Positions 11,043-12,291 of a stretch of 64,000 nt of DNA are shown here, in pieces. The notes below the pieces were generated by a model. It made no database searches and was not told where the DNA came from. It saw only the letters and a list, made by a program, of their open reading frames with translations. Source of the stretch: Haladaptatus sp. R4 (lineage in GTDB: Archaea > Halobacteriota > Halobacteria > Halobacteriales > Haladaptataceae); contig NZ_LWHG01000011.1 in the NCBI RefSeq assembly GCF_001625445.1, forward strand, positions 930,001-994,000, written 5' to 3'. Both the position numbers and the translations under genes were made by a program. Numbering within the stretch: position 1 is the first letter of the stretch; each line of letters starts with the position of its first letter.

Positions 11043-11113
11043 GCGCTGGTAGTGTAGTGGTATCACGTGACCTTGCCATGGTCACAACCTGGGTTCAAAT
11101 CCCAGCCAGCGCA
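11043..11113 (+). tRNA. tRNA-Gly (GCC), copy 1
   Basis: 71-nt cloverleaf. Acceptor stem GCGCTGG pairs with CCAGCGC and is followed by discriminator A. The anticodon stem GTGACC/GGTCAC holds loop TTGCCAT, anticodon GCC. The T-loop is TTCAAAT between CTGGG and CCCAG. No CCA is encoded, as is usual in archaea. It is identical to the second copy at 11781. A detached copy of its 3' end lies about 150 nt downstream. Confidence 0.95.
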
Positions 11114-11190
11114 CTTCTATCGGGAACAAACCGTCGAGCATCGCGTGTAGCGCGTGCTCGCATGGCGTGAGCGATGAAATCGTAGCTGGT

Positions 11191-11285
11191 GATTTGAATC
11201 CTGCAAGTCACACGCCCGGAAGCGCAACGACCGAAGGGAAGTGAGCATCCCGGACCGCCGCTCCAGTTCAAATCCCCAGCCAACG
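11191..11285 (+). repeat. tRNA-Gly-associated repeat, copy A (67-bp cassette plus tRNA 3'-end fragment)
   Basis: Positions 11191-11257 are a 67-bp cassette that recurs without mismatch at 11928-11994. It begins with an inverted T-arm-like sequence (GATTTGAATCC) and is followed by a degenerate copy of the tRNA-Gly 3' end (GTTCAAATCCCCAGCCAACG, 11266-11285). The block ends about 172 nt after the tRNA. Short reverse ORFs over it are ghosts of the repeat. Confidence 0.8.
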
Positions 11286-11388
11286 TTTCAACGACGAATC
11301 CCCATCTTCAGAAACTCGCTCGTCAGGACTTGAGTTCGGATTAGATGGTACAGAAACAGATATCAGGTACAGCTACGACCGGATAGCT

Positions 11389-11595
11389 ATGTTTGAGGAC
11401 GACTTCCGAGGAGTTGGTGATGTTCCGCTGGCGATATGGGTCGTCATGGGAATGGTAGTTGGTACCGGTCTCGGAACCACGTTCGGCGTCGTTCTGAATA
11501 ATATCGCGCTTGGACTCGCATTGGGAAGCGCGATGGGACTGGGGTTGGGGGCGGCCTTGGGTGTGGCATTTGGCGCGACGTTTGACGACGAATGA
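11389..11595 (+). CDS. Small glycine-zipper membrane protein
   Basis: 68-aa protein, MFEDDFRGVGDVPLAIWVVM at the start. Almost all of residues 13-63 is hydrophobic and Gly/Ala-rich with GxxxG spacing (MGMVVGTGLGTTFGVVLNN, then LGSAMGLGLGAALGVAFGAT), suggesting two packed transmembrane helices, with charged ends at both termini. I do not recognise a named family. It sits alone between the two tRNA-Gly genes. Composition and clean ends make it likely real, but function cannot be inferred. Confidence 0.6.
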   Translation: MFEDDFRGVGDVPLAIWVVMGMVVGTGLGTTFGVVLNNIALGLALGSAMGLGLGAALGVAFGATFDDE

Positions 11596-11725
11596 GTGTA
11601 GGTGATTGAATCGCCATTCTATTATTTTGTTTTTCGCGCGCCCACGCGTGAACCGCCACTCACACAGTACGGATCAGTCGTGTATCCTGTAGTGATGTTG
11701 ACCGTCCCACCTCGCTTGCGTAATG

Positions 11726-11735
11726 CATTTATACC
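11726..11735 (+). promoter_or_regulatory. TATA-like promoter of tRNA-Gly copy 2
   Basis: CATTTATACC lies about 50 nt before the tRNA 5' end and is a good haloarchaeal TATA-box match in otherwise GC-rich DNA. Confidence 0.45.
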
Positions 11736-11780
11736 CACGCGTGGCAAGATAGTAATGTCGCAACACGCGACGAACGAAAC

Positions 11781-11851
11781 GCGCTGGTAGTGTAGTGGTA
11801 TCACGTGACCTTGCCATGGTCACAACCTGGGTTCAAATCCCAGCCAGCGCA
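11781..11851 (+). tRNA. tRNA-Gly (GCC), copy 2
   Basis: The 71 nt are identical to the tRNA at 11043, with the same acceptor stem, anticodon GCC and T-arm. It has its own TATA-like site and a T-run (ATTTTTC) directly after the 3' end. Two further detached 3'-end copies follow at 12004 and 12130. Confidence 0.95.
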
Positions 11852-11927
11852 TTTTTCACTGACGAAACTCCGTAAGCGACGCCGCTAGGTGGCGCTGACG
11901 ACTCGCGTCAGTGAAACTAGCCACTGG

Positions 11928-12025
11928 GATTTGAATCCTGCAAGTCACACGCCCGGAAGCGCAACGACCGAAGGGAAGTGAGCATCCCGGACCGTCTTGC
12001 TCTGGTTCAAATCCCAGCCAGCGCA
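11928..12025 (+). repeat. tRNA-Gly-associated repeat, copy B (67-bp cassette plus 22-bp tRNA 3' end)
   Basis: The cassette at 11928-11994 is identical to 11191-11257. It is followed by a perfect copy of the last 22 nt of tRNA-Gly at 12004-12025. The cassette's first bases (CTGGGATTTGAA, from 11925) are an inverted copy of the T-arm, so the unit is bounded by inverted T-arm sequences. Confidence 0.85.
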
Positions 12026-12129
12026 CTTCTATCGCGAGCAAACTGGCGAGCGAGGAAATCGAATCTGTGGATTTAAATGAGACCAGTCGCATGCCCGCGC
12101 AACGAAGTGAGCAGGACCGTCTGGGCGTA

Positions 12130-12150
12130 GTTCAAATCCCAGCCAGCGCA
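12130..12150 (+). repeat. Third detached tRNA-Gly 3'-end copy (21 bp)
   Basis: This is an exact copy of the last 21 nt of tRNA-Gly, 125 nt after the previous one. It is followed by the same TTTTTC that follows tRNA copy 2, whereas copy B is followed by CTTCTATCG, the sequence after tRNA copy 1. The intervening DNA is a diverged cassette (GTCGCATGCCCGCGCAACG). Confidence 0.8.
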
Positions 12151-12291
12151 TTTTTCGAACTCACGACGACGAGCACCGCGTCGCGTGTGCTCGCCACAGT
12201 GTGCACGACGAAATCGTAGATAGCGTCACTTTCTCCGAACCGGTCGCATCTCCCACCAACCGTTTTCTACCATCGAGTTGTACGGACTCGC

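Follow-up and report, generated by a model that had tools for sequence, protein, structure and literature searches.

In the haloarchaeal genomes examined, roughly one-third to one-half of all tRNA genes carry small units at their 3' ends, each composed of a spacer, an inverted copy of the T loop, a stem-loop core and a direct copy of the tail of the adjoining tRNA. The build of these units, their clean borders, their presence or absence between species, the exchange of their cores and their conserved fold are all observed directly. We see an even chance that they constitute a family of small hairpin cassettes, non-coding and spread through the class Halobacteria, which sit at tRNA 3' ends and recombine at the T loop.

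The reference locus lies in a window of 64,000 nucleotides, the whole stretch analysed, which is part of contig C11 of a 4.9-Mb draft haloarchaeal genome (95.9% complete, 4.6% contamination); Haladaptatus sp. DYF46 belongs to the same genus. Its two tRNA-Gly(GCC) genes are identical over their full length, and the 20-nt tail TTCAAATCCCAGCCAGCGCA recurs exactly (20/20) from 12006 and from 12131 (Table 1). The initial annotation had placed three tail copies at 11266, 12004 and 12130: all three are present, but they start at 11267, 12006 and 12131, and the first is decayed, with one inserted C and substitutions toward its end. Its spacing of about 125-175 bp and its identical gene pair agree with what we find, the offsets of the three copies being 173, 174 and 125 nt. 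Shuffled flanks peak at 16/20 (300 trials), and there is no further tail match of at least 14/20 on the + strand of the 64-kb window. Two features had escaped that annotation, namely the inverted T-loop arms and a 67-nt shared core. An arm (GATTTGAA or nearly so) stands 5' of each tail copy, at 11191, 11928 and 12070, and units 1 and 2 are identical over 67 nt of arm and core (11191-11257 = 11928-11994) despite unrelated preceding spacers, which is already a sign of core exchange. Folded as RNA, the arm, core and tail of unit 2 reach -38.8 kcal/mol.

No integrase-coding gene lies between the two tRNA-Gly genes of the window, as judged by ORFs and Pfam and as the initial annotation had also noticed. 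The spacers and cores measure ~60-200 nt, no integrase or other cargo gene lies between the repeats of the window locus, and cas1 and polymerase genes are likewise absent from it. A 68-aa glycine-rich frame, probably membrane-spanning and without a Pfam match, occupies 11389-11595 (+) between the two genes. About 20 kb upstream of the locus and outside the window is an orphan array (L048, C11:920259-920430) with no tRNA gene nearby, which consists of half a hairpin, a tRNA-Gly-like tail, the spacer palindrome of unit 2 and a full hairpin; its last tail, TTCAAATCCATCGCGTCCCA, matches no tRNA tail found in the same genome.

Table 1. Layout of the tRNA-Gly(GCC) locus, in positions of the window
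Feature	Positions	Strand	Remarks
tRNA-Gly(GCC) gene 1	11043-11113	+	tail 11094-11113
Unit 1 spacer	11114-11190	+	read directly; homologous to unit 3 spacer
Unit 1 inverted T-loop arm	11191-11198	+	GATTTGAA
Unit 1 stem-loop core	11199-11266	+	second motif type (TCCTGCAAG...)
Unit 1 decayed tail copy	11267-11286	+	TTCAAATCCCCAGCCAACGT, one inserted C
tRNA-Gly(GCC) gene 2	11781-11851	+	tail 11832-11851
Unit 2 spacer	11852-11927	+	palindrome TTTCACTGAC...GTCAGTGAAA, also in orphan array L048
Unit 2 inverted T-loop arm	11928-11935	+	
Unit 2 stem-loop core	11936-12005	+	
Unit 2 closing tail copy	12006-12025	+	exact
Unit 3 spacer	12026-12069	+	
Unit 3 inverted T-loop arm	12070-12077	+	GATTTAAA
Unit 3 stem-loop core	12078-12130	+	first motif type (GAGACC...GGGCGTAG)
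Unit 3 closing tail copy	12131-12150	+	exact
Flank	12151-12210	+	TTTTTCGAACTCACGACG...; directly 3' of the second tRNA-Gly gene in Haladaptatus sp. DYF46 (L049 vs L050)

The window units, at ~125-175 bp, run from the spacer through the inverted T-loop copy and the stem-loop core to the direct tail, which extends from TTCAAAT to position 73. Family-wide, the units are non-coding and range from ~75 to 220 bp, with spacers that often begin with a T-run and contain a palindrome of their own. The consensus comprises the arm GATTYGAA, a core of the form NYAGAC...GGCGTRG and a direct tail from TTCRAATC to position 73; a second core type reads CCTGCAAG...CTTGCTCTGG. We scored stem covariation on anchored columns of 118 distinct first-type units. 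A single covariance model for all units was dropped, the MAFFT alignment yielding 0 pairs. The first core-stem position (+1) is Watson-Crick in 115/118 units with four pair types, against a shuffled mean of 50 and maximum of 63, and positions +2 and +3 in 108/118 and 116/118, respectively. Two features of first-type cores are nearly invariant, namely an A.G mismatch, present in 112/118 units, and an extra G, present in 117/118. The compensatory changes in the core stem fit a structured RNA and a folded DNA strand equally well.

Beyond the T loop, the tail matches the local tRNA at 11.3/12 positions and other tRNAs at 5.0. The inverted arm is tRNA-specific at -1 to -4 only, that is, across the T stem, and position 57 of the T loop covaries with it; hence, the basal stem is T-stem-like, with the hairpin taking the place of the T loop. 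As for the origin of the left arm, it corresponds to the complement of positions 61-65 in 37 cases, to a direct copy of T-stem positions 49-53 in 23 and to neither in 17, which leans, though not decisively, toward its being a complement of the tail rather than a copy of the T stem. An Rfam scan of the units, the RtT covariance model included, gave no family match. Elsewhere in haloarchaeal genomes, Rfam matches to L4-Archaeoglobi, a ribosomal-protein leader family named for the Archaeoglobi, occur at L074 571-670 (75 bits) and L078 827-926 on the - strand (72 bits).

Some tail copies carry a one-base insertion in the T loop, TTCACAATC for TTCAAATC, which recurs across several tRNAs and species: Arg-TCG (L024, L215), Gly-GCC (L236) and Pro-TGG (L238), as well as L051 and L076. 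It is found in none of the tRNA genes themselves that were looked at and is possibly the mark of a joining step. A different kind of array, built of short pieces of tail (CTCCGTCAGGACG) and of palindromic spacers that lack the usual T-loop arm, occurs 3' of tRNA-Arg(GCG) at L043 and L229.

When the window locus is used as a query against its own genome, the matches adjoin tRNA-Gly(TCC), Phe, Lys and Val genes. We then sought the tail of every tRNA gene in that gene's own downstream region. At least one own-tail copy is found for 20/45 tRNA genes in the Haladaptatus genome of the window, 27/49 in Haladaptatus sp. DYF46 and 14/47 in a haloarchaeal genome of another family, and for 0/42 in a non-haloarchaeal Halobacteriota genome, the sole control genome outside Halobacteria. 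When a tail is set against the downstream region of another tRNA, the match is at most 16/20 in 1880 comparisons, except for one 20/20; the thresholds of the scan miss decayed copies such as that at 11267.

A pattern that makes no reference to tRNAs (GATTYGAANYAGAC N22-52 GTTCRAATC), run over 84,980 species genomes, finds at least 120 stretches; among the matches listed, 116 are from Halobacteria of several dozen genera and 4 from bacteria, the latter in agreement with a rough estimate of ~7 chance matches. One genome was sampled per species, and counts from related genomes are not independent. Of the 125 matches listed, 112 follow a tRNA gene and share its orientation, another 3 read on the other strand, the tRNA-linked ones span 28 tRNA kinds, and the tail agrees with the tRNA at 18/20 or better in 98/112. 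The ten (10/125) with no tRNA found within 600 nt comprise the 4 bacterial stretches, two whose tRNA is cut off by a contig end (L167, L193), one whose probably intron-bearing tRNA was missed by the finder (L125), two with an integrase island between match and tRNA (L130, L176) and one with a sequence like the tail of tRNA-Arg(TCG) on the other strand (L143). Across 393 Halobacteriota genomes, the pattern occurs in 26/82 Halobacteriales and 0/311 others, and the reversed pattern in 0 of the same 393. The initial annotation had asked whether such fragments are confined to the tRNA-Gly locus; both they and the cassette occur widely at other haloarchaeal tRNAs and are clearly not unique to it.

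The number of units per tRNA gene ranges from zero to four or more. At tRNA-Gly(GCC), for which the initial annotation had suggested a comparison of copy number, congeners and members of other families have from none to several units in a row, with differing cores. Both genes for elongator tRNA-Met carry a unit in one of the two Haladaptatus genomes and none in the other; at the second of them, the flank that follows the last tail copy aligns with the flank of the empty tRNA at +0/+0 (score 142, 249 nt). Similarly, the immediate 3' flank of the second tRNA-Gly gene of DYF46 comes only after two units in the genome of the window. The units separate the tRNA from its 3' flank with clean borders, in filled and empty site pairs whose gain or loss is not polarised by an outgroup.

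The cores are further exchanged within otherwise conserved surroundings. At Val-TAC, the spacer and arm (GAGGGCGATTGGAA) are identical and the core completely different; at Leu-TAA, a different stem-loop occupies the stretch between TTCGAATTAGACC and CGTTGTTCGAATC; at Arg-TCG, partners are swapped by two spacers in what amounts to module shuffling. Lys-TTT of DYF46 has three perfect tandem units of 111 bp, and at tRNA-Val(CAC) of H. litoreus the core is inverted between the arms. Among 81 units from three genomes, the nearest core (at least 80% identity) is at a different tRNA in 33/41 cases, 20 of them within the same genome, and spacers mostly stay with their tRNA (10/16 at the same tRNA in another genome). 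It is the cores and not the tails that are shared and exchanged among different tRNA genes, the tails matching the local tRNA. A repeat spreading by recombination at tRNA genes, one of two readings offered by the initial annotation, is supported by these same cores at many tRNAs with tRNA-specific tails, and by the way species differ in whether a given tRNA has a unit.

The other of those readings, that the units are relics of viruses or islands whose cargo disappeared after integration at a tRNA 3' end, starts from the fact that archaeal integrases favour these sites: for tyrosine-recombinase islands the tRNA 3' end serves as the attachment core and is duplicated by their integration (PMC8371274), and here too the 3' end is found duplicated at the far end. 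Moreover, at two unit-bearing tRNAs an integrase frame ends beside a tail copy—a Phage_integrase (Pfam) island lies between tRNA-Ala and a hairpin unit at L130 3551-4730, and at L176 an island beside initiator tRNA-Met has an upstream frame that, by eye, ends like the L130 integrase. However, the integrase-adjacent tail copy (attR) of both islands carries no hairpin; the hairpin unit is located on the far side of that copy. Hence, islands use the same tails without the hairpin, and the units are not island scars. The position of the two islands between tRNA and units indicates instead that arrays of tail copies may offer integrases several attachment sites. Class-wide conserved core shapes common to more than 20 tRNA kinds, and the 3 integrase matches that a single query gives among ~195 tRNA-linked loci, further make scars highly improbable. 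The same is true of the viral contigs, where the pattern has 4 matches, none of them close to a tRNA; the three whose sequence was read are AT-rich and due to chance. A viral attP source of the units was rejected on these few matches, the lack of a nearby tRNA and their AT-rich, chance character. A phage collection scanned with the unit pattern gave none, and on plasmids there are 2 matches, both beside plasmid-borne tRNA genes. On plasmid NZ_CP119561.1 of Haloarcula halophila, 23 tRNA genes are clustered in ~5 kb (L204 845-5660). Another reading holds that the hairpin may be a functional RNA, co-transcribed with the tRNA and acting in its 3' processing or regulation, with the tail as part of the fold. 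The near-constant location of units 3' of a tRNA on the same strand, the covarying stem and the excess of G.T over A.C among core pairs on the tRNA-sense strand are what such an RNA would predict; yet, most of the G.T pairs counted belong to a few core families related to one another, and the sense strand folds more stably in 40/50 clusters (0.80), inside the 0.60-0.80 given by shuffled cores. Since congeners also differ at the same tRNA in unit presence, number and core type, and many tRNA genes lack units in every genome scanned, we regard such an RNA function as unlikely.

The main rival, which we regard as possible, is a purely recombinational origin without any dedicated mobility. Because all the hairpins share the T-loop sequence in both orientations, the arrays would arise by slippage during replication, by a switch of template at the palindromic T arm and by gene conversion from one tRNA hairpin to another. 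The three perfect 111-bp units at Lys-TTT of DYF46, the shuffled modules at Arg-TCG and the 67-nt identity of window units 1 and 2 are the kind of traces such processes leave, and the recurrent TTCACAATC insertion in copies, together with an arm that follows the tail complement somewhat oftener than its own T-stem strand (37 vs 23), points the same way. On the other hand, the near-invariant internal loop formed by the A.G mismatch and the extra G, like the class-wide core families, needs selection or a specific partner. At the Val-TAC exchange border, the left homology is a mutated 8-mer, GATTGGAA, which is short for homologous recombination, and the appearance of a whole unit at tRNA-Met is not slippage.

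Under the cassette reading, the core would be a mobile cassette with the T loop as its entry point. Because TTCAAAT is nearly universal in these tRNA genes, it could be used at almost any tRNA, and since the tail is duplicated the tRNA would stay intact and the element be harmless. Arrays may grow by further insertion and tandem duplication, and may lose units when tails recombine with one another. The conserved fold, with its A.G mismatch, extra G and T-stem-paired base, would then act as a recognition site on the folded strand for a putative trans-acting recombinase or transposase. Enzymes that act on folded single strands use extrahelical bases, as at integron attC sites and the ends of IS200/IS605, which the conserved mismatch and extra base of the units may be said to resemble. 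The units also show what is expected of small mobile repeats or MITE-like elements, namely non-coding, dispersed copies in each genome and filled and empty sites in relatives. Against a cassette, it counts that there is no linked enzyme gene and that the only extrachromosomal carriers are plasmids bearing tRNA genes. Furthermore, the left arm agrees with the local tRNA in its T-stem portion, so that a cassette would need to be adapted or undergo conversion once it has arrived, which would speak against a simple transposon; and the perfect 111-bp tandem units show that some of the copies stem from plain duplication. In an extended form, which we consider doubtful, tRNA genes would be cassette platforms, at which a trans-acting enzyme reads the folded T-loop hairpin and inserts or exchanges hairpin cassettes at almost any tRNA—a logic that recalls the cassette arrays of integrons or the repeat arrays of CRISPR, with tRNA tails as its basis.

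Several known systems share aspects of this organization. The rtT repeats of the E. coli tyrT locus are 178-bp repeats that hold 19 bp of the tRNA-Tyr 3' end (Rfam RtT). They too are repeats 3' of a tRNA gene, each with the end of that tRNA, but represent a single bacterial locus, whereas the units accompany a large proportion of all tRNA genes across a whole class and have cores common between tRNAs. The small mobile repeats of Haloquadratum (SMR/MITE/PATE; PMC3119063) are likewise haloarchaeal, non-coding and ~80-110 bp long, with inverted repeats or palindromes and an enigmatic mobilisation. In contrast to the units, which duplicate ~20 nt and sit at tRNAs, the SMRs have IS605-type elements as their targets and leave no target duplication (PMC3119063). 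The casposase of Aciduliprofundum boonei targets a tRNA 3' end, recognises the T-loop sequence TCAAATC and makes a target duplication (PMC6614799). This duplication parallels CRISPR spacer integration, and the targeting of the tRNA 3' end is shared with the units; however, it is of 14-15 bp and starts 8 bp after TCAAATC (PMC6614799), whereas that of the units is ~20 nt and includes the T loop, and casposons are kilobase elements with cas1, whereas the units have no gene. For casposon or Cas1-type insertion, the length and position of the duplication do not fit, and the window locus lacks a linked cas1 or polymerase gene, an absence that would still be compatible with an enzyme acting in trans. 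The tyrosine-recombinase islands, for their part, are of kilobase size with an integrase, and those at L130 and L176 end without a hairpin. In Methanopyrus kandleri, a palindrome described as species-specific, CGTTA(N)9TAACG, lies ~10 bp 3' of about half of the tRNA genes with no tail copy reported (PMC5217627), whereas the units end in one. We found no earlier description of the units in Rfam or the open-access literature searched, a scope with most subscription journals outside it that leaves novelty unproven; the hairpin units are apparently an undescribed family of tiny recombining DNA elements.

Archaeal mobile DNA docks mainly at tRNA 3' ends, and structured units that copy the tRNA tail across a whole class change the reading of haloarchaeal attachment sites, 'tRNA fragments' and islands. 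They also provide many natural cases of presence and absence, exchange and inversion from which the responsible enzyme or process might be found. If a dedicated enzyme exists, it would be an inserter of small cassettes that works at almost any tRNA gene.
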